Of a stretch of DNA of 12,828 nucleotides, positions 1 to 12,828 are shown piece after piece. The first letter of the stretch is position 1. Each line of letters opens with the position of its first letter. Source of the stretch: Bdellovibrionales bacterium (GTDB lineage: Bacteria; Bdellovibrionota; UBA1018). Below the pieces are notes generated by a model that was not told the origin of the DNA, did no database searches, and was given only the letters and a program-made list of their open reading frames with translations. The DNA is taken from contig JAGWZD010000028.1 in the NCBI GenBank assembly GCA_018968995.1, positions 1 through 12,828 of the forward strand. Direction: 5' to 3'. The translations under genes and the position numbers were made by a program.

Positions 1-750
1 TGAGAGGATTTTATCAAGAAATGCTGGTCCACACGTCAGACTGGCGGGCGACATCGTTAGCGGAAGTTCAGAAATGCGCTTGAGATGAGAGGGACTCCAG
101 GAAGTCGGCATGAGAATGGTGGTCCGACCCGAAGCCAGGTTTGCGAAAGTGAAATTAGCGAAGATCGACCAGTCGGGTCGATCCTCAGCAAAGCCCTGTT
201 CGCGATGAAATGCCGCCTCAAAGATGCGGTGTTGTTCTAGCAGATATCCGTGTGTTCTTACCACCCCCTTGGGTTCACCCGTGGTGCCAGAAGTGAAAGT
301 GAGGATTCCCGGATGGTCGGGAGAGACTGAATTCAAGGTTAGTTTTTCGGAAGCGTGCGACCCGCGAGGAGAAATCCATCGCGGAATATTGCGCACTCCA
401 GGATTTCTAAGACCCCATAGCTTTCCCAGAGTGCTGGCAACAAATGCCTTCGGTTTGACGATTTCGAGAGAGCGTTCAATTCTTGAGGCTGGCATCCAGG
501 GCTCTACTAGCAGGATCGGACATCCAAAAGAGAGTAGGGCAATGGCAGAAGCATAAAGGTCCAGTCCTAGACCTAAGAATAGCAGCACTGGATCGCCCGG
601 GCTCAGTCCCGCTGCCCGGAACTGCCGCTGAAGAGCCCTTCCGTAATCGAAAAGCTCCCTAAAGGTCATAGAAGATCCGTCGGGCATCCAGATGGCACAA
701 CGGTCGGGAGCCTCTGCCACTTGAAGAGTGAATTGTTCCACGCAGTTCAT
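1..750 (-). CDS. AMP-binding acyl-CoA ligase-like enzyme, N-terminal 250 residues (3' end beyond the left edge)
   Basis: Reading the minus strand from the ATG at 748-750 gives 250 open codons that run off the left edge. Seen: the ANL-superfamily phosphate-binding (A3) motif FTSGTTGEPKG at residues 152-162, followed by VVRTH, and an N-terminal MTFRELFDYGRAL segment typical of these enzymes. Known: the family adenylates a carboxylate with ATP and usually passes it to CoA or a carrier thiol; full length is usually 450-600 residues, so about half is visible. The segment around residues 196-215 (SIFANFTFANLASGRTTILMP) recalls OleC/fatty-acid-CoA-ligase relatives, which hints at an acyl substrate, but the substrate-defining C-terminal half is missing. 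No clear Shine-Dalgarno precedes the ATG; no better start is visible, since an in-frame TAA lies 18 codons upstream. It is divergent from the BtaA-like/ABC operon across 63 bp, so a shared role in lipid metabolism is possible but inferred. Confidence 0.9.
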   Translation of the reverse strand, partial: MNCVEQFTLQVAEAPDRCAIWMPDGSSMTFRELFDYGRALQRQFRAAGLSPGDPVLLFLGLGLDLYASAIALLSFGCPILLVEPWMPASRIERSLEIVKPKAFVASTLGKLWGLRNPGVRNIPRWISPRGSHASEKLTLNSVSPDHPGILTFTSGTTGEPKGVVRTHGYLLEQHRIFEAAFHREQGFAEDRPDWSIFANFTFANLASGRTTILMPTSWSPSHLKRISELPLTMSPASLTCGPAFLDKILS

Positions 751-813
751 GGTGCGAGAATTAGTGTACGGTGAATTGAAAAGGGTTGTGCAGTTCAAAA
801 TTTACGGAAGACA

Positions 814-1929
814 ATGAATCTAATGAGTCGCGCCACCTCTTATTTTTCACAGCTCAATTACACCCTGGCTAATGAAGACACAGCCCTTGAGGTGGCTCTA
901 CTGCCGGAAAAAACTGACACCATTTTGTCGATCGCTGGAAGTGGTTCGAGGGTAGTGCCCCTTCTGTCTCGGTCTCCCCGACGGGTCATTTGTGTGGATC
1001 TGTCGCCTGCTCAGCTGGCCTTGACGGAGCTGCGAATCTCTCTAGTTCGTGAGGTAAGCCGAAGTGAATTCATGGCATTTTTGGGCTACCCCTGTGCTGA
1101 GGCCGAGAAATCTCCTGAAAAACTTCGTAAGCATTGGCTCGAAAAACTGGAGCTTCGTCCCGAGACTCGATCCTTCTGTCGGGACTGGCTGTCGTCACGA
1201 GATTGGCAGAGTCCCATCTACTCGGGACGTTGGGAAAAGACGTTTCAAACGCTCAGTGCGCTTGTTCAGCGAATGGTAGGCACCACTTCGAGAGAGCTTT
1301 TTGACTGCCGCACGGTGGCGGAACAACAAGACTTCCTGAGAACTCGCTTTGCACACCAGCGCTGGCATCTTGCAGTGGCGCTTTTTGGAAACGCCTCAGT
1401 ATTTAATGCGCTTCTGTATAAAGGAAGCTTTCCCAAAAAGAACATTCCAGGCAGTCGATTTCATTTTTATCGCGATGCCTATTCCCGACTTTTCTCGATT
1501 TCTCCAGCGCGGCAGAATTTTTTTCTGCAGCTGTCATTTTTAGGCCACTTGGAGTTTGAGGAAGGTAACCCAGTGGAGTGCGACTCTTTGGTCTTTGAGA
1601 AGGCAAAGGAGGCGCTAGGTCGATCTGTTATGGAGTACGTTCATGCCGATGCCGTGGAGGCAGCGCAAAAAGAAAGGCAAAACATCGGTTTTCTTTCGTT
1701 TTCTGATGTCCCTTCCTATTTTAAAGGAGATACTGAACGTCAATTCATGCAAAAGATTCGCTCTGGCCTAAATGATCAGGCCCTCGTTGTCGTCCGAAAC
1801 TACCTCCGCGTTCCGAGTCAACCGGACCTTCGGGGCTTTGTGAATTTGCGTGAAGAGCATCGGGAGGTCATCGCTCAAGAAAAAGTTCAGGTGTATACAG
1901 TCGATGTATTTCGTCATGACTCAAAATAG
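814..1929 (+). CDS. DUF3419/BtaA-family SAM-dependent 3-amino-3-carboxypropyl transferase-like protein
   Basis: A 371-residue protein without signal peptide, probably cytosolic or at the inner membrane face. Seen: near the N-terminus, LNYTLANEDTALEVALLPE (residues 14-32), then a SAM-binding-like glycine loop ILSIAGSGSR (37-46) and an acidic strand end VICVDLSPAQLALTELR (58-74, D62), an arrangement I recognise from DUF3419/BtaA proteins. The C-terminal part (NIGFLSFSDVPSYF, then ALVVVRNYLR) also resembles that family. Known: BtaA moves the 3-amino-3-carboxypropyl group of SAM onto diacylglycerol to give diacylglyceryl-homoserine, which BtaB then methylates to the betaine lipid DGTS. No BtaB-like methyltransferase is present, so the product may be unmethylated or the acceptor different. 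GGAAG lies only 3 nt before the ATG at 814; the ATG at 823 is an alternative start. First gene of a five-gene operon. Family call fairly sure, exact reaction unsure. Confidence 0.85.
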   Translation: MNLMSRATSYFSQLNYTLANEDTALEVALLPEKTDTILSIAGSGSRVVPLLSRSPRRVICVDLSPAQLALTELRISLVREVSRSEFMAFLGYPCAEAEKSPEKLRKHWLEKLELRPETRSFCRDWLSSRDWQSPIYSGRWEKTFQTLSALVQRMVGTTSRELFDCRTVAEQQDFLRTRFAHQRWHLAVALFGNASVFNALLYKGSFPKKNIPGSRFHFYRDAYSRLFSISPARQNFFLQLSFLGHLEFEEGNPVECDSLVFEKAKEALGRSVMEYVHADAVEAAQKERQNIGFLSFSDVPSYFKGDTERQFMQKIRSGLNDQALVVVRNYLRVPSQPDLRGFVNLREEHREVIAQEKVQVYTVDVFRHDSK

Positions 1930-1961
1930 TCCAAGGTCTAAGAGGTAGAGAGCCTAAAGCT

Positions 1962-2633
1962 ATGATCTACAGTGTGCGCGATCTTCATTTTCAATACTGG
2001 CTTGATTTGATTCCCGTTCCAGCGCTTCGCGGAGTTTCGCTGGATATTGATTCAGGTGAATCCGTGGTTCTGAGCGGACCCTCGGGCTCTGGTAAAAGCA
2101 CTCTTCTCTCGCTTTTAGGGCTGATTGAGGGCGTGCAGGGCGGAAGCCTAAAGTTCTTAGGTCAGGAGTTTGCCGTTTTATCGGAAAAGAAAAAAAACGA
2201 TATTCGTCGATTTCAGATTGGGTTTATCTTTCAGAACTTCCAGTTGTTTCCGACGCTAACAGCAGAAGAGAATGTTGAATATTTTTTGATTCGTCAGGGC
2301 GTTCCAAGCCTAGAGCGAAAAAAGAGAGTGAAGCATGCTCTGGAAGCCGTGGGTTTATGGGATCGCCGCTCGCATCGCCCCAATGAGCTGAGTGGAGGCC
2401 AGAGACAGAGGGTAGCTATTGCACGCGCAGCTGCTAAAAGACCGAAAGTGATTCTTGCGGACGAGCCCACTGCTAGCCTCGATCAAAAGACTGGTGGCGA
2501 AATTTTACAGATGCTCGATCAGTTGCGAGGAGAATTCGGTACTACTCTTATCATTGCGAGCCATGATCCGTTGGTCATCGAACGTGCAGGACGGGTGTTT
2601 CAATTGATGGATGGTAAAGAGGTGAACCTGTGA
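1962..2633 (+). CDS. ABC transporter ATP-binding protein, LolD/MacB type
   Basis: A 223-residue stand-alone nucleotide-binding subunit with every expected motif: Walker A GPSGSGKST (39-47), Q-loop Q91 in FIFQNFQLFP, signature LSGGQRQR (143-150), Walker B VILADE (163-168), D-loop SLD (172-174) and switch histidine H201 in ASHD. The length and the LFPTLTAEENV segment fit the LolD/MacB/FtsE group, which powers mechanotransmission-type transporters that pull lipidated or amphipathic substrates from the inner membrane or periplasm rather than moving them through a channel. It should bind ATP on the cytoplasmic face as a dimer with the permease encoded immediately downstream (4-bp overlap). It starts 32 bp after the DUF3419 gene; GAGG at 1942-1945 is 16 nt from the ATG, rather far, so translation may depend partly on the upstream gene. 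Family assignment is secure; the substrate is unknown. Confidence 0.96.
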   Translation: MIYSVRDLHFQYWLDLIPVPALRGVSLDIDSGESVVLSGPSGSGKSTLLSLLGLIEGVQGGSLKFLGQEFAVLSEKKKNDIRRFQIGFIFQNFQLFPTLTAEENVEYFLIRQGVPSLERKKRVKHALEAVGLWDRRSHRPNELSGGQRQRVAIARAAAKRPKVILADEPTASLDQKTGGEILQMLDQLRGEFGTTLIIASHDPLVIERAGRVFQLMDGKEVNL

Positions 2634-3871
2634 ACGCTTCCACTCAGTTCTTCTGGCGCCTCTACTGGATTTGGAAGCTCGCCCTGAGAAGTTTACTTCG
2701 TCAGCCTCGTCGTACAGCGACAGTGCTACTCACAGTGGGTATTGGGACGGCATCATTGTTTTTATTCCAGGGTTTTAACACGAGCATCATGAATTCCTAT
2801 CGAGAGAACTCTATACATGCTCGGTATGGACATGGGCAGCTGCACACGGCGGGGTACAGAGATTCAGTATATGAAAAGCCGTGGGAACACTGGATTGAGG
2901 ATTCGGGTCAGATTCGTAGTGAGCTTTTAAAAATGCCAGAGGTCAAGCAGGTCTTTCCGCGCATTGAGTTTTTCGCTTTGCTTACAAACGGACAAATTAA
3001 TGTAAGCGGCAGAGGAACCGGAGTTGACGGGAAGGAAGAATCGACTTTTTTCACGACGATGAATGTCGTGGAGGGAAAAATGCTCTCAGACGAGCCAGAG
3101 GGTATTTTGATTGGACGGGGCCTCGCCAACGCGTTGAACCTCAAGCCCGGAGATCGGGTGACCGTTCTTGCAAATACCATTCACGGCAGTCTGAATGGCG
3201 CGGACTTAACGGTCACTGGAATTTTTCACACGGGAAGTAAAGAGTTTGATGATGTTGCGTTTAGAATACCTCTTAGCCAAGCTCAAAAGTTATTAGATAC
3301 TGAGAAAGTAGAGTCGATTGCTCTTGGGCTTGCTCGGGATGAGGATTGGGATATTTTTTCTCAAAAGGTGGCGACAGTCTTTCCGCAGCTCTCTGCAACG
3401 TCGTTCGCGGTCCTAGATAAGATTTACTATCAGCATTCTATTGATTGGCTGAAATCACAGTTCGGAGTCATTCGGCTTATCATTCTTGCCGTTGTGGTGT
3501 TGGGAATATTTAATGTGGTCGCTACTTCTATTTTTGAGCGAAAGGCGGAGATTGGTAATTTGCGTGCTAATGGCGACTCGAGGTGGGATGTCTTACTTTT
3601 GCTTTTAAGTGAGGGCACTGCGGTGGGATTAATTGGTGCCCTGGTTGGAATTTTAGGGGCAGCCATCCTGAACTCCACCCTGCTCTCAAAGGGTATTTTG
3701 ATGCCCCCGGCGCCTGGGCTCACTCGGACATTTCATATTCCTATTGTTTTGGATTTATGGACTGCGGTTATCACGTTCGCCCTGGGCGGAGTAAGCTGTC
3801 TTTTCGCCACCCTATTATCGGCTTGGCGAGTAGTGGGTATGTCTATTGGAAATGCCCTTCGATCGACTTGA
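2630..3871 (+). CDS. ABC transporter permease, LolC/E-MacB (FtsX-fold) type
   Basis: A 413-residue inner-membrane protein. Starts at GTG 2630-2632, overlapping the ATPase stop as GTGA, with GAGG (2619-2622) 7 nt upstream, so GTG is well supported. Topology read from hydrophobicity: a basic N-terminus (LRQPRR) and TM1 at about 29-50; a large periplasmic MacB_PCD-like domain to about residue 275, beginning with GHGQLHTAGY; then three C-terminal TM segments: VIRLIILAVVVLGIFNVVAT, the GTAVGLIGALVGILGAAIL stretch, and WTAVITFALGGVSCLFATLL. The ERKAEIGNLRANGDS segment after TM2 is the characteristic cytoplasmic coupling region of FtsX-domain permeases. Only one permease gene is present, so a homodimer like MacB is likelier than a LolC/LolE heterodimer. 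The N-terminal style matches permeases often encoded beside LolA-like proteins, as here. It probably lifts a lipid or lipoprotein from the inner membrane; substrate inferred only. Confidence 0.94.
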   Translation: MNASTQFFWRLYWIWKLALRSLLRQPRRTATVLLTVGIGTASLFLFQGFNTSIMNSYRENSIHARYGHGQLHTAGYRDSVYEKPWEHWIEDSGQIRSELLKMPEVKQVFPRIEFFALLTNGQINVSGRGTGVDGKEESTFFTTMNVVEGKMLSDEPEGILIGRGLANALNLKPGDRVTVLANTIHGSLNGADLTVTGIFHTGSKEFDDVAFRIPLSQAQKLLDTEKVESIALGLARDEDWDIFSQKVATVFPQLSATSFAVLDKIYYQHSIDWLKSQFGVIRLIILAVVVLGIFNVVATSIFERKAEIGNLRANGDSRWDVLLLLLSEGTAVGLIGALVGILGAAILNSTLLSKGILMPPAPGLTRTFHIPIVLDLWTAVITFALGGVSCLFATLLSAWRVVGMSIGNALRST

Positions 3872-3872
3872 T

Positions 3873-3878
3873 GAGGAG
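3873..3878 (+). promoter_or_regulatory. Ribosome binding site of the LolA-like gene
   Basis: GAGGAG ends 5 nt before the ATG at 3884. It lies in the 12-bp gap after the permease stop codon and fixes the start of the LolA-like gene at the Met preceding the signal peptide. Confidence 0.8.
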
Positions 3879-3883
3879 CAACG

Positions 3884-4594
3884 ATGTACTTTTTAAGAAT
3901 CGCAAGGTTACTAGGTTTGGCATTCATCAGCAGTATTGGAATCAATTCAAGTCATTCGATGGCCGCAGTGTCGCCAGAGCAGATCCTAAAAAATGTGGAT
4001 GATGTACGAAATCCTTCAGAGAGTTATCAGATGCGAGTGCGAATTGGGGATAGCTTGTTTGAAGTGAAAATCGAGGGAAATTCAAAGACTCTGATCGAGA
4101 CCCTGGAGCCCGCAAGAGATCACGGACGCGATATGCTAATGATTGGTGAAGAGATGTGGGCCTATGTTCCCAATCTCAAGCGTGCCGTACGAGTCAGCTT
4201 AAGCCAGAAGTTGACCGGGCAGGCAGCCAATGGCGACATCAGTCGTATGCGATGGGCGGGAGACTATCAACCCAAGGTCATCTCTGAGACACCTCAAACA
4301 TGGACATTGGATCTGACCGCTTTAAAAAAAGGCCTTACCTATGAGCGAATCCGTGTTGAGGTCGAAAAGAAGACTTTCCATCCCCAGACAGCCGAGTTTC
4401 AGACGGCTTCATCTAAGCCACTCAAGCGCGCAGTTTTTGGAAGGTTTAAGCTCATTGCTGGAAGAGTAAGGCCAACAGAATTACAAATCTCCAGCGCCGT
4501 CAATGTGAACGAGCGGTCAACGATACAGGTGGAAGCGATGGAAAAAAAGGCGTTCCCGGCAGCGCTCTTTAATCCCCAGAGATTTTCTCGATGA
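3884..4594 (+). CDS. Periplasmic LolA-like 'outer membrane lipoprotein-sorting' family protein
   Basis: A 236-residue exported protein. Signal peptide at about 1-27 (basic RIAR, hydrophobic LLGLAFISSIGI, likely cleavage near SMA|A). The mature part has the hallmarks I associate with the LolA_like family (PF17131): a strand-rich start, then GRDMLMIGEEMWAYVPNLKRAVRV (in two pieces, residues 81-90 and 91-104) and a late FNPQRF (229-234). Known: LolA-fold proteins form an open hydrophobic half-barrel that shields lipid anchors in the periplasm; the PF17131 branch is widespread and its ligands are mostly undefined. Its place after a LolCD/MacB-like ABC pair, and a 4-bp overlap with a beta-barrel gene, suggest it accepts an amphiphile from the permease and delivers it to the outer membrane. 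This is not necessarily the housekeeping LolA; nothing here shows that its cargo is a lipoprotein. Confidence 0.88.
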   Translation: MYFLRIARLLGLAFISSIGINSSHSMAAVSPEQILKNVDDVRNPSESYQMRVRIGDSLFEVKIEGNSKTLIETLEPARDHGRDMLMIGEEMWAYVPNLKRAVRVSLSQKLTGQAANGDISRMRWAGDYQPKVISETPQTWTLDLTALKKGLTYERIRVEVEKKTFHPQTAEFQTASSKPLKRAVFGRFKLIAGRVRPTELQISSAVNVNERSTIQVEAMEKKAFPAALFNPQRFSR

Positions 4595-5715
4595 GAATGG
4601 GCGTCGCGGCGAGTTTAATTAGCCTAACTATCGCGCAGATTTTATTTTGGAGTCCAGGACACGCGCAGGGCGCTCTCCGTTATTCGGGAGAGTTGGGAGT
4701 TATCGGCGCGCTGGGATCCGACTCCGTAGTTCAATCACGAGCGAGGGGCTATTTGGATCCCGCCATCGACTTTAAGGTAACAGAAGATGGATTTGGTTGG
4801 AGTGCCCGAGTGTCGGCGCGGGGATGGTCGCAGTTTGCAGAGGTTCAGTCGATCAGCCAGACTCAGACTGAGGCGGAGATTCGTGACTCCTACATTGGCT
4901 ATGATTGGCAAAATACTCGGGTGCGTTTAGGTTTTCAGTCGTTATCTTGGGGAGAGACTTTCGGTTTTTTTATAGCAGATCTCCCCAATCCCCGAGACCT
5001 TTCGGACCCACTCTTATTAGAGATCGCGCATATTAAGAAGCCCCAGTTCATGCTGCAGGCGCAGAGGTTTTTTTCTGATGGGGGAGTACAATTGTATTTT
5101 GTGCCATTAGCGCGGCCCTCTGATTTCTCACTAGCGCCTTCAACTGAATCCTTCCAAAAGGTAGGACCCGATTCGGAGTATGGATTTCGGGTCCATCGGC
5201 TCATGAGCTTTGGATTGGATGGCTCGTTCTTTTTAATTCATCATCATGAAAGAGAAGTGATTTTTAATCCATCTCCAGTCTGGAGTTCGGGAGTGACCGC
5301 CTCTCAGTCTATGGGGAGTGACTGGGTTCTGAGAACCGATCAGGTTTTAATTGACCTCAAGAAGCGACCCTTAGACGCATGGAGAGGCGTTCTGGGTTTA
5401 GATTGGAATGGAGTAGAGAATGTGACCCTGGGGGGCCAGCTTCAGCGAGATCCCTTAAATACCGGAGGTTCTCTTCGTCTAACCCTTCGTAGAACTTCAG
5501 GGCTTTTAGATGGGATGGAGTTTGAGGCATTTTGGTTTCAAGGGTTAAGCAAGTCCGAGACCTGGGTTCAGCCCAAGCTGAGCTACACGACCAAGAGTAA
5601 TCTTAAGATCTCTCTGCGATACGACTGGATCGAGGGAAGTATTTTTGACCCGGGTCTGCTTCGCGGCCTTCTGCAGGAGGACCGCGGACTACTCTGGATG
5701 AGTTATGGTTTTTGA
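4591..5715 (+). CDS. Predicted outer-membrane beta-barrel protein (DUF1302-like)
   Basis: A 374-residue protein with a signal peptide (MRMGVAASLISLTIAQILFW, cleavage probably after HAQ or HAQG, about residues 26-27). The mature part is built of alternating-residue strands rich in aromatics and Gly, e.g. FGWSARVSARGW, RVRLGFQSLSWGETFGFF and SGLLDGMEFEAFWFQ, and ends in LLWMSYGF with a C-terminal Phe, as expected of a BAM substrate. The SWGE...NPRDLSDPL segment resembles DUF1302-type barrels; that name is tentative. It is the last operon gene and overlaps the LolA-like gene as ATGA; the ATG at 4597 is an alternative start. Plausible role: outer-membrane acceptor or conduit for cargo carried by the LolA-like protein. 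Its 3' end overlaps the convergent neighbour by 13 bp, and I see no terminator between them. Confidence 0.82.
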   Translation: MRMGVAASLISLTIAQILFWSPGHAQGALRYSGELGVIGALGSDSVVQSRARGYLDPAIDFKVTEDGFGWSARVSARGWSQFAEVQSISQTQTEAEIRDSYIGYDWQNTRVRLGFQSLSWGETFGFFIADLPNPRDLSDPLLLEIAHIKKPQFMLQAQRFFSDGGVQLYFVPLARPSDFSLAPSTESFQKVGPDSEYGFRVHRLMSFGLDGSFFLIHHHEREVIFNPSPVWSSGVTASQSMGSDWVLRTDQVLIDLKKRPLDAWRGVLGLDWNGVENVTLGGQLQRDPLNTGGSLRLTLRRTSGLLDGMEFEAFWFQGLSKSETWVQPKLSYTTKSNLKISLRYDWIEGSIFDPGLLRGLLQEDRGLLWMSYGF

Positions 5716-7529
5716 ATGCGAGACTGTCCAATCTGTTGGACTTTTGCTCTGATCACATCACTGGATGCCCGAGAAACCAGTTGATCCAGATTCGACGCAC
5801 TCAGATCTGATGCCGACTCGGCCCCTTTGATCAGAATCAAGTCACGATACTCATCGGCATTTAGTCCCGGCTTATAGAGGCCATCGCTGAAAGTGACTGC
5901 ATCAGTAACGGTGAAGGGCGCTAACTTTGGAAGACCCCGTAAAAGAAGATCTTTCGCGGTGCTCTCTAAGATAGAGGCATTAAAGAGTGAGAGCATTTCC
6001 CGGGTGTTCATCGCACCTGCAAGATCTAGTGTCACAGAGATGAGACCGTCTCGGGCCTCTTCGGCAGGTAGAACCAGTATGATCTCAGCCACCACGGTAG
6101 TAGCGGGCTCGGTAGTGCGCGTGAAGGCACTTTTAAAAAGCTCTGTTCGGCAGGACCATGCAGAGCATGCCAGTAACAGATTGCGAAGAGCGGTGCGGTC
6201 CATCGATGCAATATTCACGGTGGCCAGTAGAATGAGCTGGTCGCGAAAAGCACTCGAAGGTCTTCCTGAGAGCAGAGTGATCACTTGTCCAGCGGTGAGG
6301 GCCGTGATTCGAGAGGCGACAGTTCGGTAGAGTTCTAACACGATTTGATCCGATTCAATCGGTGCGGTGAGCGCAGCGAATTCGGCAACATTTACTGGTC
6401 CCGTAGATTGTGCGGCGATACTGGTCAGTTGGTCTCGCTTTGGGCCTATGGGAATCTGTCGAACCAGGTCGAGCAGTGCACCGACACTTTTGTCAGAGTC
6501 ATTCAGGAAGGAGTCTTTTCCGATGGAAACGGCAAAATCTAATGCCCGCTTTTCTGCTGCGAGCGAGAACATTTTTAGTTTTTCATCAGGTCGCAACGCC
6601 TCAAAAGATCCGCCTAGTCGCTCAAGCGCAAGCTGGAAAGCAAGCTCGGGGCTTTCTGGACCTTCCTGGATTCGGGACAAAATATTTTGCGCTTCGATAA
6701 ACTTAAAACCCTTAATTTTCACTAATCCCACCATGAGTAAGCGGTTACTCAGGGGGGCGAACTGTTCAGCCAGGGCTAAGTTTTGAGTGAGCGTTTTTCG
6801 AAGAGCAGCATTTTCAAGGTTATCCGGCAACTCGCGAAGTCGACGCTTCATTGCGGTCACGGCACTTGCCGGGAATACGACACCATCGAGTAGAAGCTGA
6901 AGTCGACTGGAGTCAATGGAGGGGGCTTTCTGAGCGAGATCGACCAACTGTTGGTGAAAAGCTTGAGAGGTGGAGGAAACGGCACGAATGCGCAAGAGTG
7001 AGTCCTCGAGATCATCTAGACGAAGCAGGTCGATGAGGTCAGATTCCGAGAAGGATAGTCCCGGCCCGCTTGTCGGAGCAACAAGCTCATACTCTTCGCG
7101 AGGCTCTGCTGCGATTTTATAGGAGACACCCGAGCCGTCAGCCGAAAGCTGCAGAAAAAGAGTGGCGCCCGTTCTTGCTCGTTTTCTAGCTGGATCAAGT
7201 TCCGCTCGCGACATTTGCAGGAGTGCTTTGCCGTCAGAGGAGAGTACCTTTAACCCCTGCAGGGTCAGGAGTCTCGAATCCTTCCGTGACATGAGTGGAA
7301 TCTGCTGAGTGGTTTCGATCTTTTGAGAAAGCTCGAGCGAAATGGGGTTAATCGGATCCACGCGCCCGTACTCGAGCTGGAGCGAGCCCGGTATTGATGT
7401 GCCGGTTATTTTGATCTCGATAAAGCCGCCGCCATTGAATGGGCCAGAGGCTTCTGCGGACCGGGCCGGTGTTGCCGATAGTCCAATCCAAGCGGAGAGA
7501 AGGAAGCTGAAGAGGGGGATCAGGCGCAT
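5703..7529 (-). CDS. Exported protein with eight tandem ~32-residue alpha-helical repeats, unknown function
   Basis: I do not recognise a named family. I chose the ATG at 7527-7529 (608 residues) because GGAG (7539-7542) lies 9 nt upstream and the product starts directly with a signal peptide, MRLIPLFSFLLSAWIGLSA, with likely cleavage after ARS or RSA. The open frame extends to a GTG at 7547 (614 residues), which has no ribosome-binding site. Residues 23-160 look strand-rich and may form a beta domain; the rest is helical. From residue 348 to the end, the sequence divides into eight consecutive units, seven of exactly 32 residues and one of 37, with a shared pattern: L..LL in the first helix, (R/K)D.L in the second. 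This predicts a periplasmic or surface alpha-solenoid, usually a protein-binding scaffold. Transcribed alone, convergent with the barrel gene and divergent from the hemerythrin gene. Confidence 0.88.
   Translation of the reverse strand: MRLIPLFSFLLSAWIGLSATPARSAEASGPFNGGGFIEIKITGTSIPGSLQLEYGRVDPINPISLELSQKIETTQQIPLMSRKDSRLLTLQGLKVLSSDGKALLQMSRAELDPARKRARTGATLFLQLSADGSGVSYKIAAEPREEYELVAPTSGPGLSFSESDLIDLLRLDDLEDSLLRIRAVSSTSQAFHQQLVDLAQKAPSIDSSRLQLLLDGVVFPASAVTAMKRRLRELPDNLENAALRKTLTQNLALAEQFAPLSNRLLMVGLVKIKGFKFIEAQNILSRIQEGPESPELAFQLALERLGGSFEALRPDEKLKMFSLAAEKRALDFAVSIGKDSFLNDSDKSVGALLDLVRQIPIGPKRDQLTSIAAQSTGPVNVAEFAALTAPIESDQIVLELYRTVASRITALTAGQVITLLSGRPSSAFRDQLILLATVNIASMDRTALRNLLLACSAWSCRTELFKSAFTRTTEPATTVVAEIILVLPAEEARDGLISVTLDLAGAMNTREMLSLFNASILESTAKDLLLRGLPKLAPFTVTDAVTFSDGLYKPGLNADEYRDLILIKGAESASDLSASNLDQLVSRASSDVIRAKVQQIGQSRIQKP
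5706..6488 (-). repeat. Protein-level tandem repeat: eight units, mostly 32 codons each
   Basis: Units in the 608-residue numbering: 348-379, 380-411, 412-443, 444-475, 476-507, 508-539, 540-576 (five-residue insertion) and 577-608. They begin SVGALLDL, NVAEFAAL, TAGQVITL, DRTALRNL, ATTVVAEI, NTREMLSL, TVTDAVTF and SASNLDQL. The DNA has diverged, so this is an old duplication seen only in protein. The unit length and L..LL...RD.L pattern suit two short helices per repeat. Unit boundaries are mine by eye. Confidence 0.7.
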
Positions 7530-7544
7530 TCGGGTGAGCTCCAT

Positions 7545-7580
7545 CACGAGTCACGTAGCACTCGTGACGCCACGAGTCAA
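7545..7580. promoter_or_regulatory. Palindromic operator-like site overlapping a candidate promoter of the solenoid gene
   Basis: ACTCGTG (7560-7566) and CACGAGT (7571-7577) form a perfect 7-bp inverted repeat with a 4-bp spacer; a third half-site, CACGAGT (7545-7551), lies 8 bp away in the opposite orientation to the central copy. On the minus strand a candidate promoter overlaps it: TTGACT (7580-7575) as -35, 17 bp, then TG-extended TACGTG (7557-7552) as a poor -10. Transcription would start near 7545, leaving a short leader with the GGAG before the ATG at 7529. A dimeric repressor could bind here. A hairpin in RNA is the alternative reading. The palindrome is certain; its function is inferred. 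Confidence 0.45.
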
Positions 7581-8124: not shown

Positions 8125-9519
8125 TTAGGGGAATTCTATGGTCAAGGGTTGAGCTCGGTGGCTGCTCCAGTACTGACAGGTCGTTCCGGACTGTACATCA
8201 GCAGAAGACCTCTCGAGCCCGGGAAATCGAAATGGACTACATCGTAAACGCACGTCGAAAACGGCTGAACCCTGCTGCAGTTTTGTTCGGGCATCGAGAG
8301 TTTGTGAGCGCTCATCAAATGAGCCCTGTTCAAAAGATATCACCAGTTTTTCTCTCGCTGAGTGTCCAGGTAATTCAAATTGAAGAGAGAGACTCACTTC
8401 GTGTTCAGTGGAAGGCACGAAAAGCTCACGAAGCTCTTGTTCTCGAGTCCGCGCCGCATAAGTAGCCTTCAGCCAGACCTTTAACGAGTTATCATTCAAC
8501 GTGGTCCGGCCGTCTAATTCCCTGAACAGAATCGACCGTGAATCGGCGTTATCAACAGGTAATTTGTCGATCGCGCTGGGGTCGGTTTGCAGAGAGACAG
8601 TGGTGGTCGCAACACGGCCAAATCCCTCAGTAGAGTGAGAGCATTTCCACTCCGTTCCAGTGGACTCGCATTCTGTAATCACTTCTGAAATTGCGTTATT
8701 TCTCTCAACCAAGGCTTTGCCCGTAAGTTTTCCAGTCCGGCGATCAAGCAAGGCATCTTTGTGCACCAATCGAAAGGAATTACCGTAATTCAGCGTGAAC
8801 TGTACGACCTGAAGTGACGCAAATCGGTTCAAAAACTTTTCTTCAGGAGAGACCTCAGACTCAATAAAGATAGCGCTTACGGGCTGTTCCTTGCTCTGGC
8901 CAAACTGTGTTGAGCCTAGCCATAATTCGGTTGAGGTTCCTGGCTTTGAGGATCGAATTTTTTCCGCAATTTCAGAAATGGACTGTTTTGAGTCCTTGGT
9001 GAGCTTGAAAAGACCAGCGAGCTCGGCAGCTCCAGTGATTTGTAGCTCGCCTCCGAGGCTATTATTTGCAACAGATCCACTCAGGATCACTTGCTCGACT
9101 CGCCCACCCGATCTCTGAAGAGGTAGGGTGACTTCTAATTTTCCCGTGGATTGATCAAAATAACTATCTAGTGCCGTGAGTGCTAATCGATTAGAAGAAT
9201 CTTGGAAAATTATACGTGCTGCAAGGGTTGCTTGTCCGTCCGCGCGATCACCTGATGAGCCAGCAACGACTTTAACTTGCGGAACCAGCGTAATTTCAAA
9301 GGCACCAATCGCTTCTCCGGTTTGTTTGGAGGTGAGATCACCACGATAAATTCCTGCAGCCGAGTAGAGCTCGCCGAGGTCCTCGTTGAGCTTCTGTCGT
9401 CTCCAGTCCTCGAGGTCCTTGTCGCCCACACAGCCGAAAGAGGAAAACAGGATCAGAGCGCCAATTCCAAACGAGGTCAGGCCCGCGAGTGAATCGCTTT
9501 TACGCCTTATTTTGAACAC
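8125..9519 (-). CDS. Predicted lipoprotein with a triplicated beta-rich module, unknown function
   Basis: A 464-residue protein starting at GTG (9517-9519), supported by GGAGG (9525-9529) 5 nt upstream. The N-terminus KIRRK, a hydrophobic stretch and SSFGC with Cys30 look like a lipoprotein signal, though the lipobox is imperfect (Ser-Phe-Gly before Cys). The mature part is strand-rich. A similar segment recurs three times about 140 residues apart: DSYFDQSTGKLEV (118-130), DALLDRRTGKLTG (255-267) and QGSFDERSQTLDA (398-410), each followed by a strand of similar pattern. The second and third modules carry Cys pairs (C284/C293, C427/C448) that could form disulfides; the first has none. It lies 50 bp downstream of the RND-TolC gene on the same strand and may be co-transcribed, so an accessory envelope role for that pump is possible but unproven. 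No family recognised. Confidence 0.85.
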   Translation of the reverse strand: MFKIRRKSDSLAGLTSFGIGALILFSSFGCVGDKDLEDWRRQKLNEDLGELYSAAGIYRGDLTSKQTGEAIGAFEITLVPQVKVVAGSSGDRADGQATLAARIIFQDSSNRLALTALDSYFDQSTGKLEVTLPLQRSGGRVEQVILSGSVANNSLGGELQITGAAELAGLFKLTKDSKQSISEIAEKIRSSKPGTSTELWLGSTQFGQSKEQPVSAIFIESEVSPEEKFLNRFASLQVVQFTLNYGNSFRLVHKDALLDRRTGKLTGKALVERNNAISEVITECESTGTEWKCSHSTEGFGRVATTTVSLQTDPSAIDKLPVDNADSRSILFRELDGRTTLNDNSLKVWLKATYAARTREQELRELFVPSTEHEVSLSLQFELPGHSAREKLVISFEQGSFDERSQTLDARTKLQQGSAVFDVRLRCSPFRFPGLERSSADVQSGTTCQYWSSHRAQPLTIEFP

Positions 9520-9569: not shown

Positions 9570-12500
9570 TCAGTTGAGAATCTCAACAAGAGTCGTGGGG
9601 TCTATTCCCATAGCTTTGGTGCTCTGCGCAAGGGCTTCGAGGTACTCAAAACGGGCCTGGTCTAGGGCGTTCTCAGCTTCAGAGTAGGACTGTTGAACCT
9701 GTAAAAACTGTAAAAGATCAATGGTTGCAAGGCGATAGTTCCGTTTAGCCTCTTCGAGGCTCGATTTGGCGAGTTCCTGTGCCTTGGTCGAAACATCGAT
9801 CTTTCTGAGCGCGACCTGAAGGGCCTCCTGGGCTTTTACCTGATCTAAAGAGAGGTTTTGGCGAAGCGACTCTTCATCCAAGGCGAGTTGCCGAGCTTGA
9901 GACGTGAAGCTGTGGCGTTCATGGACCGAGGAGAGTCCACTAAACAAAGGAATGTTGACCGTGACGGTGGCGTTATACGCATTAGCCGCAGAATCGAGCA
10001 AGTCAGACGCTCGATAGGCTCCCCGACTCAAGCTTCCGGTGAATTGCACCGAGGGAAGGTCTTTTCCGAGAGTCGACCTTCGAACACTTTCAAGTTGCTT
10101 ACGGCGAAGTCCGATCTCTTCGAACTCAAGAATCTTGGAAAGCCGGCCATCAAAAAGTCCAGATACCTTTTTTTCCTCTGGCGGCAAAAGAGAGCCTCGC
10201 ACACTAATCACATCGGGACGCTCATGTCCTAGAAGCGTGGCGAGCTGTTGGGCTGAAATCTTTAGTCCGCTTTCTGCTTGTTCGAGCTTGGGTTGAAGTA
10301 GCGCAAGCTGGGTCTTGGCCTGCAGCAAATCGATGACCTGTCCGCGTCCAATGGCCTGACGACGCTGAGTCGTGGTAACGCTTTCTTTTTGAAGCTTTTC
10401 AACAGTACGAAGCGTCTCTAGGTTCCGTTGGTTGAGTAGGACCCTATAAAAACTCCTGATCACTTCAAGGATCGTATCTCTCTCGTTTATTTCTAAATCT
10501 AGGCGCGCGATGTCTCGATTTTTGTCAGCAACATCTATTCCTGATTTCAGTCCAAACACGAATAGTGGCTGAGTCAGTTGCAGGGAGCTAGTGTAATAAT
10601 TGTAAGAGTCCCCGCCAAAACGCGCTGTATTCATGATCACCGCGTCCTTTCGGGTAGATGCTGTAGCCTGCGCCGACAGGGTTGGAAAAATGGTCGACCA
10701 AGTTCTCAGAACCTCGGCTTCTGATTGCGAAATTCTCTCTCGATACTTTTGTAAACGCGGTTGATTCTGAATCGCCTCCTTGACGGCAGAAGACAGAGAT
10801 AAAGGAGATGTTTCCGCTAGGGCTTCCGAGGCGGGTAGTGCTGCCAAAAATAGAAGCACAACCGAAGCCTGCCCGGCCTGCTTGAAGCGCCGCTGAAACC
10901 TGGAGAAACCGAGATAGGCACAAGGAACAACAAAAAGCGTGAGAGCCGTAGAAACCAATACCCCACCAATAACCGTGACCGCCATCGGAACCCGGGTTTC
11001 AGCGCCAGGGCCTAGGGCTAGGGCTGGTGGAATGGCTCCGGCAACCGTTGCAAACGAAGTCATCAAGATGGGGCGCAGTCGCATCGGGCAGGCTTGAGTA
11101 AGCGCATCATAAACCGATAGTCGCCCTCTTCCGTTCTCGATCGCCTGATTCGTGAAGTCGACTAGAAGGATAGAGTTCTTTTTTACGATCCCCATCAGCA
11201 AGATAAGCCCGATAAAGCTGTAGATGTTCAAAGTCTGCCCCGTTAACAGAAGACCTAAAAAGGCACCCGACACGCTAAAAGGAAGGGCCAGAAGAACGGA
11301 TATGGGATCAATAAAGCTGTTAAACTGTGAAGCGAGAACCATATAGGCGACAGCAATGCCGAGGATCAGTGCAAAGCCCAAGTCACGAAACGATTCTTTA
11401 AATGTCTCTGCGCTGCCGCTCATGATGAGTTTGTAATCAGAAGGTAAGATCTCTTTGCCAATCTTCTGAATCTGGAGCACGGCCTCATTTTGAGACCTTC
11501 CAGGCTTCATGTTCGCAAATACGCTAATGGCTCGTTCGCGGTTATATCGATTGATTTGCGAAAGGCTAGGCTTCTCGCTGAGAGTAACGACTTCAGAAAG
11601 ACGCACAAGCTCACCGCGATTGTTTCGAACGAATAATTTGGTGATTTGCTCAGCACGCGCTCTCTCTTCACGCTCGAGACGAAGTCGAATGTCATAGCGG
11701 CGCCCCCCAGACTCATATTTACCGACATTCACTCCTCCAACGAGGGCGTTAATGACCTCAGAGATCGCCCGCACGCTCACACCCCGTGCGTTAGCGCGGT
11801 TTCGGTCTGGGGTGATCTGGATTTCCGGTTTTCCTAACTTGTAATCCCAGTCGATATCCGCCATCAGGCCGGTTTCTTCCATTCGAGTCTTCAATTTCTC
11901 AGAGTACGCGGCCAGCTTGTCCCAGTCGGCCCCGCGAACTGAAAATTCCACTGGAAATCCTCGACCAGCGCTAAAGCCACGCATCGAAAGATCTTGGGCG
12001 AAGACTTTGAGGTCCGGTATCTTGCTCAATATTTTTCGGAACTCTTCCATGAGATCTTGCTGAGTCCAGGCTTTGCCAGTTTTTGGGTTTTTTCCTCTTT
12101 GATTCTTCTCCTTTAAGGAGACGAAAATTACACCTGTGTTGACTTCGCCACCGCCAAATCCACCAACAGCAGAGTAGATTCGTACTATCTCAGGGCGTGC
12201 CATCAATAGTTTTTCCGCCTCTTGAAACTTGGTATTGGTGTACTCTAGCGAGCTGTCTGTGGGAGTTTTCAGGCGCATTAAGAAAACCCCTTGGTCTTGG
12301 GTTGGAGAAAACTCTTTTCCAATAAATTTTACGGAAAACGAGGTCGCAACCAGGAATACTAGCGATGCGAAAAGGACCATTTTGTAACGCGCCAGCGCAA
12401 GCTTTAGTATTGATCCGTACAGCTCAGTGCAGCGTTTAAAGGCACTATCTACCCAGGCTCCCAGTCCCCGGGTGCGGTGTGAGCTGTCTAGAAACTGAGA

Positions 12501-12828
12501 ACAACGCATCGGTGTAAGCGTGAGTGCCTCGAGGAGAGATAGTCCAACGGCAACGGTAAGAGTGATTCCGAACTGGAAGAAGAATTTTCCAATGGCACCT
12601 TTCATGAACACCACTGGAATAAAAATGGCTGCAATCGCAATCGTTGCCGCTAAGGCTGCAAAGGTAATTTCTTTAGATCCAGTAATGGCAGCCTCGAGTC
12701 GAGATTTCCCCATCTCTTTATGTCGAACAATGTTCTCGAGAACCATGATTGCGTCATCTACAACAATGCCGATGGCGAGACTCAGCCCAAGCAGGGTGAA
12801 CGTGTTGAGAGTGAAGTTCATGAAGGAT
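9570..12828 (-). CDS. RND efflux pump (HAE1 type) fused in frame to a TolC-family outer-membrane factor; N-terminus beyond the right edge
   Basis: One uninterrupted frame; numbering here is from the Met at 12821. RND part, residues 1 to about 640: TM4 with the proton-relay pair D22-D23 (GIVVDDAIMVLEN, equivalent to AcrB D407/D408), TM5-TM7, the second periplasmic loop, and TM10 with GIVKKNSILLVDF, where K548 matches AcrB K940; TM12 is about 617-637. The relay looks intact, so the pump should be active. Roughly the first 370-390 residues of an AcrB-length protein are outside the window. Then a short basic linker (RFQRRFKQAGQ), a signal-peptide-like segment (ASVVLLFLAALPASEALA|E, about 652-669), and a 414-residue TolC/OEP domain with coiled-coil helices and FSGL/LLQFLQVQQSY features. 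Normally these are separate proteins. AcrB ends in the cytoplasm, so topology permits export of the TolC part. No adaptor (AcrA-like) is visible; it may lie upstream. Confidence 0.92.
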   Translation of the reverse strand, partial: SFMNFTLNTFTLLGLSLAIGIVVDDAIMVLENIVRHKEMGKSRLEAAITGSKEITFAALAATIAIAAIFIPVVFMKGAIGKFFFQFGITLTVAVGLSLLEALTLTPMRCSQFLDSSHRTRGLGAWVDSAFKRCTELYGSILKLALARYKMVLFASLVFLVATSFSVKFIGKEFSPTQDQGVFLMRLKTPTDSSLEYTNTKFQEAEKLLMARPEIVRIYSAVGGFGGGEVNTGVIFVSLKEKNQRGKNPKTGKAWTQQDLMEEFRKILSKIPDLKVFAQDLSMRGFSAGRGFPVEFSVRGADWDKLAAYSEKLKTRMEETGLMADIDWDYKLGKPEIQITPDRNRANARGVSVRAISEVINALVGGVNVGKYESGGRRYDIRLRLEREERARAEQITKLFVRNNRGELVRLSEVVTLSEKPSLSQINRYNRERAISVFANMKPGRSQNEAVLQIQKIGKEILPSDYKLIMSGSAETFKESFRDLGFALILGIAVAYMVLASQFNSFIDPISVLLALPFSVSGAFLGLLLTGQTLNIYSFIGLILLMGIVKKNSILLVDFTNQAIENGRGRLSVYDALTQACPMRLRPILMTSFATVAGAIPPALALGPGAETRVPMAVTVIGGVLVSTALTLFVVPCAYLGFSRFQRRFKQAGQASVVLLFLAALPASEALAETSPLSLSSAVKEAIQNQPRLQKYRERISQSEAEVLRTWSTIFPTLSAQATASTRKDAVIMNTARFGGDSYNYYTSSLQLTQPLFVFGLKSGIDVADKNRDIARLDLEINERDTILEVIRSFYRVLLNQRNLETLRTVEKLQKESVTTTQRRQAIGRGQVIDLLQAKTQLALLQPKLEQAESGLKISAQQLATLLGHERPDVISVRGSLLPPEEKKVSGLFDGRLSKILEFEEIGLRRKQLESVRRSTLGKDLPSVQFTGSLSRGAYRASDLLDSAANAYNATVTVNIPLFSGLSSVHERHSFTSQARQLALDEESLRQNLSLDQVKAQEALQVALRKIDVSTKAQELAKSSLEEAKRNYRLATIDLLQFLQVQQSYSEAENALDQARFEYLEALAQSTKAMGIDPTTLVEILN
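10815..10910 (-). other. Internal signal-peptide-like junction between the RND and TolC domains
   Basis: Codons 638-669 of the visible fragment encode a basic stretch with two arginines and a lysine (residues 644-647), a hydrophobic run (654-661) and a signal-peptidase-I-like ALA|E site, after which the mature TolC domain begins at 10814. There is no stop codon and no ATG between the domains. The only internal start candidates, e.g. the GTG at 10857-10859, lack a convincing ribosome-binding site and would remove the basic n-region. Cleavage is predicted, not shown. Confidence 0.65.

Follow-up and report, generated by a model that had tools for sequence, protein, structure and literature searches.

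A divergent locus of Bdellovibrio relatives that probably builds an undescribed lipid and delivers it by a Lol-like route

The window, a 12,828-nucleotide stretch of DNA from a Bdellovibrionales bacterium (contig JAGWZD010000028.1), carries a five-gene operon encoding a DUF3419 (BtaA-type) protein, an ABC ATPase, a permease, a LolA-like carrier and an outer-membrane barrel (Table 1). These five genes are one wing of a bigger divergent locus. We infer from the gene content which reactions occur, what is carried and in which direction, and we think it probable that the locus builds an undescribed lipid and moves the product to the outer membrane through an exporter of its own that is Lol-like and not Lol. 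The sequence-only reading had drawn the five genes as a complete line that attaches an aminocarboxypropyl headgroup to a lipid and exports it. All five genes were found where it had placed them, with gaps of 32, −4, 12 and −4 bp. A promoter scan found no promoter-like match in the divergent intergenic region, and neither the promoter scan nor the terminator scan gave more sites than shuffled sequence.

Table 1. Features of the window, numbered from its first nucleotide.
Feature	Coordinates	Strand	Remarks
AMP-forming ligase, N-terminal part	1..750	-	PF00501; divergent from operon; truncated by contig end
Divergent intergenic region, 63 bp	751..813		Measured from first ATG of ligase
DUF3419 (BtaA-type) protein, 371 aa	814..1929	+	Putative SAM-dependent 3-amino-3-carboxypropyl transferase
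ABC ATPase, 223 aa	1962..2633	+	LolD/MacB-like; below cut-offs of 25 NCBIfam models shown
Single FtsX/MacB_PCD permease, 413 aa	2630..3871	+	Subfamily apart from relatives' better LolC/E matches
PF17131 LolA-like periplasmic carrier, 236 aa	3884..4594	+	Signal-peptide-like N-terminus; match to solved structure 3buu
Outer-membrane beta-barrel, 374 aa	4591..5715	+	OprD/AlgE-like model fold; signal-peptide-like N-terminus; C-terminal Phe
Terminator-like hairpin	5726..5741	+	3' of last operon gene; such matches no commoner than in shuffles

Linkage of DUF3419 to the transport cassette, which had been set beforehand as the refutation test, was conserved. Across 290 genomes of the phylum, with matches taken at E up to 1e-50 for the permease and 1e-30 for DUF3419, 35 of 40 strong permease matches lay no more than 10.1 kb from a DUF3419 gene. 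None of the 37 weaker permease matches did so, 11 of them being in DUF3419-containing genomes. The count drew on all 77 permease matches and on 46 DUF3419 matches (44 genomes with a permease match, plus two others). The genes were found in at least nine arrangements, and several families of the phylum possess the set. On a tree of 87 rows the change count was 10 over all rows and 9 over the 61 rows left when cassette-less rows with less than 19 kb of sequence were excluded. Gene content, subfamily identities and conserved linkage are direct observations. Some genomes count against the preferred explanation: 59 of 95 DUF3419-positive genomes had no strong cassette permease, G114 and G260 (two copies) carried the cassette with no DUF3419 found, its neighbours there being known as ORFs only, and three loci (L026, L039 and L051) had the ABC ATPase and permease with no LolA-like gene nearby. 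A cassette with no DUF3419 found also occurred in G002, an assembly 78% complete whose permease gene sits close to where a short contig ends.

In the window's genome, genes for an AMP-ligase, a UbiA-like protein, a dikinase, a GNAT protein and a lipid kinase make up the other wing, which is spread across three contigs; the AMP-ligase gene of the window seems to run on into contig C265 of that assembly. The loci of relatives add an acyl-ACP-reductase-like protein and an SDR, sometimes also a formyltransferase. No acyl-ACP-reductase-like gene was found in the assembly of the window itself, which is 87% complete, although both same-genus relatives have one. In Bdellovibrio sp. KM01 most of the gene set lies inside 16 kb. 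The AMP-ligase had its best NCBIfam match in PRK09274, under the cut-off of that model, and the AMP-ligase and the SDR showed a distant likeness to OleC and OleD, again under cut-offs; the thiolase OleA of the OleABCD olefin pathway was not noticed among the neighbours. The dikinase passed the NCBI cut-off for a phosphoenolpyruvate synthase model (910.5 bits vs 883), so that a housekeeping name is available for it. The locus survey covered the best 80 of 114 confirmed DUF3419 relatives, some of them on short contigs, and after ORF selection 76 of the 80 loci still included their DUF3419 gene. MMPL-type proteins occurred in 7 of these 80 loci, presence being counted with profiles built from the same surveyed loci; the names MMPL, P450 and large-FtsX were assigned from one Pfam-scanned member each.

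The fact that linkage held in at least nine gene orders supports the reading of the operon as synthesis plus export. The self-contained, five-step headgroup line did not survive the analysis, as about nine enzymes are linked at the locus, DUF3419 among them. A plain BtaA/diacylglycerol headgroup is too simple a product, because it would need neither the AMP-ligase nor the acyl-ACP-reductase-like, UbiA-like, dikinase and lipid kinase proteins.

The DUF3419 protein belongs to PF11899, which it matched with 112 bits (cut-off 28.2) over profile positions 5–373 of 385. Residues G42, G44, R46 and D62, which include the glycine motif and the acidic residue and which we take to be the SAM site, were invariant in an alignment of 22 sequences. 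No relative of solved structure was found at the thresholds used, one sequence search giving two chance-level matches and another none. Six plasmid-borne relatives were 25–39% identical to the window's protein; those on alphaproteobacterial plasmids, themselves not proven BtaA, were 25–27% identical. No gene named as a methyltransferase occurred in the three annotated plasmid neighbourhoods (the fourth, a Shinella stretch, is unannotated), and no methyltransferase, the class to which the BtaA partner BtaB belongs, was among the commonest recurrent neighbour families identified across many DUF3419 loci. Two methyltransferases adjoin one locus (L078), and the same ORF families occur in L100 and L101. 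BtaA is counted among SAM-using 3-amino-3-carboxypropyl transferases in a review (PMC10491745).

The ATPase and the permease are related to LolD and LolC/E, and the carrier is LolA-like, so that the cassette might be a second lipoprotein-sorting system whose lipid-enzyme neighbourhood is incidental or regulatory. The ATPase scored 184.9 bits with the LolD model TIGR02211 (cut-off 307.75) and the permease 99.5 bits with TIGR02212 (cut-off 362.45). The latter cut-off was reached in none of 11 tested genomes of the phylum, where the best matches had 99 to 313 bits. In line with a second Lol system, no LolC/E match better than the cassette permease was found in the window's own assembly, and in G155 and G217 the cassette permease was outscored by little (103 and 94 bits vs 109 and 111 for the best match elsewhere). 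However, matches of 306–313 bits occurred elsewhere in G001, G003 and G021, and of 268–269 bits in two g73 genomes, against 86–98 bits for the cassette permease. The window's genome also holds two separate PF03548 LolA proteins (contigs C98 and C108), the strong cassette permease is limited to 39 of the 290 genomes, and the weaker permeases never adjoin DUF3419. We consider a second Lol system quite improbable. A role of the cassette as the sole Lol system of these organisms was rejected, since several cassette genomes have separate and much better LolC/E matches. MacAB-TolC was also rejected: no HlyD/MacA adaptor was found by Pfam among the five genes, and the ATPase and permease are unfused. 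The hook loop of LolC is the docking element for LolA; the cassette permease presumably works as a homodimer. Two stretches of the permease, PPAPGLTR and EKPWEHW, are conserved.

At E up to 0.1 the carrier matched no Pfam family but PF17131 and did not qualify as PF03548 (LolA). For the barrel, sequence search found no solved relative at E up to 1. Its predicted structure has an OprD/AlgE-like fold across most of the chain, and the closest folds to the model are channels, including OprD/Occ, and the alginate exporter. The barrels of relatives are only 18–53% identical to that of the window; given this poor conservation, an exact common ligand is not evident from them. With a barrel of this predicted kind, a secreted small molecule, either an amino-acid-bearing lipid or a metallophore-like natural product, might leave through the channel instead of staying in the outer membrane. 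The AMP-ligase, formyltransferase, P450 and GNAT genes lend the locus a natural-product flavour, and in Aestuariibacter a DUF3419 gene stands beside genes for HlyD, AcrB, an AMP-ligase and a penicillin-amidase-like protein. We regard secretion as unlikely: no multi-domain NRPS/PKS match was found among the scanned neighbour proteins (representatives only), no TolC-type channel or adaptor is among the five genes, the set recurs in several families, and carriers of the LolA type are known for hydrophobic cargo. Inward transport, in which barrel and carrier import prey or environmental lipid that the enzymes remodel, appears very improbable. OprD/Occ channels are known for uptake, and many of the genomes concerned belong to predators. 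MacB/LolCDE-type permeases, however, are known as extruders, and the neighbours are chiefly enzymes of activation and elaboration, as opposed to degradation.

Under the preferred reading of synthesis and delivery to the outer membrane, the AMP-ligase and the acyl-ACP-reductase-like enzyme would supply an activated acyl chain or fatty aldehyde, which the SDR, UbiA-like, dikinase, lipid kinase and GNAT proteins may elaborate. The DUF3419 protein would add a SAM-derived 3-amino-3-carboxypropyl (homoserine-ether) group. The ABC ATPase and a homodimeric Lol/MacB-type permease would extract the product from the inner membrane, the PF17131 protein would shield it while it crosses the periplasm, and the OprD/AlgE-like barrel would receive it at the outer membrane. 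We put forward tentatively a fuller version, in which Bdellovibrio and its relatives possess a new lipid, elaborated with prenyl or phospho groups, with an acyl-ACP-derived chain and a SAM-derived homoserine-ether; its delivery by the Lol-like ABC transporter, LolA-like carrier and OprD/AlgE-like barrel could be a trans-envelope route distinct from those of Lol, Lpt, Mla and the AsmA-like bridges.

For lipids apart from LPS and lipoproteins, the way to the outer membrane is still to be explained. Since the genes of the Lol-like exporter are linked to a single biosynthetic locus, gene deletion offers a joint test of cargo and route, and KM01 is a named strain with most of the set in one stretch. 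If the proposal is true, bacterial DUF3419 proteins gain a pathway context besides betaine-lipid synthesis, and a supply route of the outer membrane that has yet to be described becomes testable. No description of this gene set was found by title or abstract in the literature searched, most subscription papers and preprints being outside the search. In that literature DUF3419 is mentioned in 4 papers, and no paper has Bdellovibrio together with 'betaine lipid'; for BtaA and Bdellovibrio there is one study, on Sinorhizobium attacked by Myxococcus. The words betaine and homoserine do not occur in a paper on a Bdellovibrio outer-membrane protein (PMC12228718).

Among known systems, the Borrelia BBJ23-29 cluster likewise combines a homodimeric MacB-like ABC transporter, a LolA-like protein and an outer-membrane barrel, and its proposed role is the transport of a non-polar ligand to the outer membrane (PMC13078400). 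The Borrelia barrel is of the Omp85 family and is accompanied by TPR proteins, whereas the barrel here is predicted to be OprD/AlgE-like; its description names no biosynthetic enzymes in the seven-gene cluster, in contrast to the multi-enzyme pathway of the present locus. With BtaA of betaine-lipid (DGTS) synthesis the DUF3419 protein shares the family PF11899, matched along almost the whole profile, and the type of reaction to be expected, but the commonest recurrent neighbour families include no methyltransferase and the linked enzymes indicate another backbone. Lipid-export neighbourhoods with PF17131, DUF1302 and MMPL proteins exist in Proteobacteria; they share the LolA-like carrier and a DUF1302-type barrel, whereas here an ABC transporter supplies the energy. 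The Lol systems (LolCDE, or LolDF with LolA) share a LolD-like ATPase, a carrier of LolA fold and, in LolDF, a single LolC/E-F-type permease. Unlike them, the present proteins fall below the NCBIfam cut-offs, the permease forms a separate subfamily tied to DUF3419 and the enzyme set, the operon includes a barrel and lacks LolB, and there are separate LolA proteins elsewhere in the window's genome, as well as LolC/E matches of higher score in related genomes.

The exporter genes of the five-gene operon, an ABC ATPase, a permease, a LolA-like (PF17131) carrier and a barrel (the cassette), are linked to DUF3419 across related genomes. A profile of the cassette permease was searched against 290 genomes of the phylum (E up to 1e-50), of which 95 contained DUF3419. 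The 77 matches comprised 40 strong permeases at ≥375 bits (39 genomes) and 37 weaker ones at ≤286 bits (31 genomes). Conserved linkage, which the sequence-only reading had proposed to check by a neighbourhood survey, was found: DUF3419 lay on the same contig, 0.5–10.0 kb away, for 35 of the 40 strong permeases, and on the same contig for 0 of the 37 weaker ones, 11 of which were in DUF3419 genomes (Fisher's test on genomes, p = 7e-17, uncorrected for kinship). On the DUF3419 protein tree the cassette label required at least 9 changes (61 rows), or 10 with all 87 rows. The linkage is constant while the gene order varies, as listed by locus here.

Gene order at DUF3419 loci (L numbers) that carry cassette genes
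Order	Loci
DUF3419, then cassette	window, L022
Cassette 3' of dikinase or GNAT	L023, L024, L025, L065, L154
Cassette 5' of DUF3419	L098, L149
Cassette divergent from kinase-SDR-reductase-DUF3419	L047, L055
Cassette divergent from GNAT	L042
ABC and permease only, after DUF3419	L039, L051
Dikinase-kinase-SDR-reductase-cassette-DUF3419, single strand	L147, L148
ABC-permease, then kinase-SDR-reductase-LolA-barrel-DUF3419	L156, L157
Order of Bdellovibrio sp. KM01	L141

The barrel was called from position and size in L139–L141, L143, L147, L148, L150, L156 and L157; a Pfam scan of four such barrels gave one weak Alginate_exp match and three without a match.

In the window, which is contig C430 of a 2.4 Mb assembly (453 contigs, 87% complete) whose nearest named relatives are Bdellovibrionota MAGs, the five head-to-tail ORFs noted earlier were recovered, with re-measured gaps of 32, −4, 12 and −4 bp. 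Order and strand were identical in the closest same-genus genome (the sister, L022), with 54–77% identity. A search of the window for RNA families and tRNAs found none. The operon makes up one half of a divergent locus, whose other half begins with an AMP-forming ligase gene. In the sister, genes for a UbiA-like protein, a dikinase of 933 aa and a GNAT protein come after this ligase. In the window's assembly they are split between two other contigs: C265 carries the C-terminal part of the ligase with the UbiA-like gene and the larger part of the dikinase, and C199 the end of the dikinase together with GNAT and lipid kinase genes. The compared contig ends (200 bases each) had no common stretch of ≥15 bases, and the contig order was therefore inferred from the sister. 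Fusion of the ligase to UbiA in L099 supports joint action of both.

Coordinates of features in the window and in two other DUF3419 loci
Feature	Location	Strand	Remarks
AMP-forming ligase	window 750 down to 1	-	cut by contig end
Five-gene operon	window 814-5715		DUF3419, ABC_tran, FtsX+MacB_PCD, PF17131, DUF1302 (Pfam)
614-aa protein	window 5703-7547	-	no Pfam match; convergent, 13-bp overlap with barrel gene; 46% identity in sister species
464-aa protein	window 8125-9519	-	no Pfam match; lipoprotein-signal-like start; 52% identity in sister species
AcrB-type RND pump fused to TolC-type outer-membrane channel	window 9570-12827	-	single frame (PF00873, then PF02321); sister copy 1478 aa; fusion also in third same-genus genome
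Reductase-like protein	L023 7915-10050		~300 N-terminal residues, here and in relatives, without Pfam, NCBIfam or PDB match
Roseinatronobacter plasmid row	L162 523-8507		consecutive UbiA, PEP/pyruvate-binding dikinase, DUF3419, two unknown genes, AMP-ligase (AMP-binding)

Of the 114 DUF3419 loci in the genome collection, the best 80 were searched with profiles. The acyl-ACP-reductase-like gene and the lipid kinase were each found in 48 loci, SDR and AMP-ligase each in 43, dikinase in 42, the UbiA-like gene in 37, formyltransferase in 28 and GNAT in 18; the cassette permease occurred in 13 and the LolA-like protein in 11. These counts are lower bounds, because many loci end at contig ends. Eighteen of these 80 had no reductase, dikinase, SDR, kinase, ligase or UbiA gene. 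The C-terminal part of the reductase-like protein matched a solved long-chain acyl-ACP reductase and the aminotransferase entry 4ppm, which we take to be PigE. Despite exceeding the NCBI cut-off of the phosphoenolpyruvate synthase model (910.5 vs 883 bits), the dikinase was taken as a putative phosphotransferase, because its best solved relatives were 5fbs/5hv1 (457 bits; deposited as phosphoenolpyruvate synthase, presumably rifampin phosphotransferase) and its His domain is at the C-terminal end, the order found in the rifampin phosphotransferase group and not in true phosphoenolpyruvate synthase. The cultured strain KM01 (G188) carries within 16 kb formyltransferase, ligase, UbiA, dikinase, DUF3419, a barrel-sized gene, LolA-like, ABC, permease, reductase, SDR and lipid kinase genes; GNAT was not found in this set. 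In G115, of the same genus group, ~23 kb hold kinase, SDR, reductase, ABC, permease, DUF3419, dikinase, UbiA and ligase; a LolA-like gene was not recognised among them. The Roseinatronobacter plasmid row is the pathway core in an alphaproteobacterium, outside the phylum.

A PF14518 haem-oxygenase-like iron protein was directly 5' of DUF3419 in 8 of the best 80 of 114 loci (all 8 scanned), from Myxococcota, Bacteroidota and Pseudomonadota (L032, L033, L054, L074, L075, L077, L080, L086). A Deefgea plasmid (L161) also has a PF14518-type neighbour; SpeD follows DUF3419 there, which hints at an aminopropyl donor. L034, filed as Candidatus Nomurabacteria, has neighbours of Bdellovibrionota type and may be misbinned.

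The enzyme types fit a lipid product. Synthesis would involve acyl activation and reduction, a lipid kinase and a UbiA-like transferase, with DUF3419 as a putative SAM-dependent 3-amino-3-carboxypropyl transferase. The product would be extruded by the ABC ATPase with its single permease, which belong to a kind that extrudes lipidic cargo; for the PF17131 protein, 3buu is a solved relative from the LolA superfamily, and the barrel is OprD/AlgE-like in a structure model. We infer both the direction of transport and the cargo. An MMPL-type protein occurred in 7 of the best 80 of 114 loci, and in 6 of these it started ≤2.5 kb from DUF3419; four loci had a large FtsX permease immediately 5' of DUF3419, and L077 had HlyD with AcrB; these other exporter types fit an exported product, short of proof. 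Against lipid export stand the 59 of 95 DUF3419 genomes with no strong cassette permease, the absence of the LolA-like gene beside the cassettes of L026, L039 and L051, and the failure to find the acyl-ACP-reductase-like gene in the 87% complete assembly of the window. So do three of the five strong permeases without nearby DUF3419, one in G114 and two in G260, genomes with no DUF3419; searched at E up to 1e-60, G260 had dikinase relatives and no reductase, and G114 had neither. Of the other two, that of G002 sits close to where a short contig ends, in an assembly 78% complete, and in G227 permease and DUF3419 are on different contigs.

Identity with Lol is unlikely. The cassette fell below the curated Lol cut-offs, as did the phylum's better LolC/E matches; because those matches fall short too, more weight lies on the separate permeases of several cassette genomes, which score 268–313 bits with the LolC/E model, against 86–98 for the cassette permease, the gap being small in G155 and G217. 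In a literature search of titles and abstracts, with subscription papers and preprints mostly outside its scope, no paper found described the gene set. According to a review (PMC11784454), the most frequent form among Gracilicutes is LolDF, whose permease is a homodimer. The closest published arrangement found is the Borrelia BBJ23–29 cluster, which differs in its Omp85 barrel and in that none of its seven named genes is for a biosynthetic enzyme, and which combines a homodimeric MacB-like ABC transporter, a LolA-like protein and a barrel (PMC13078400).
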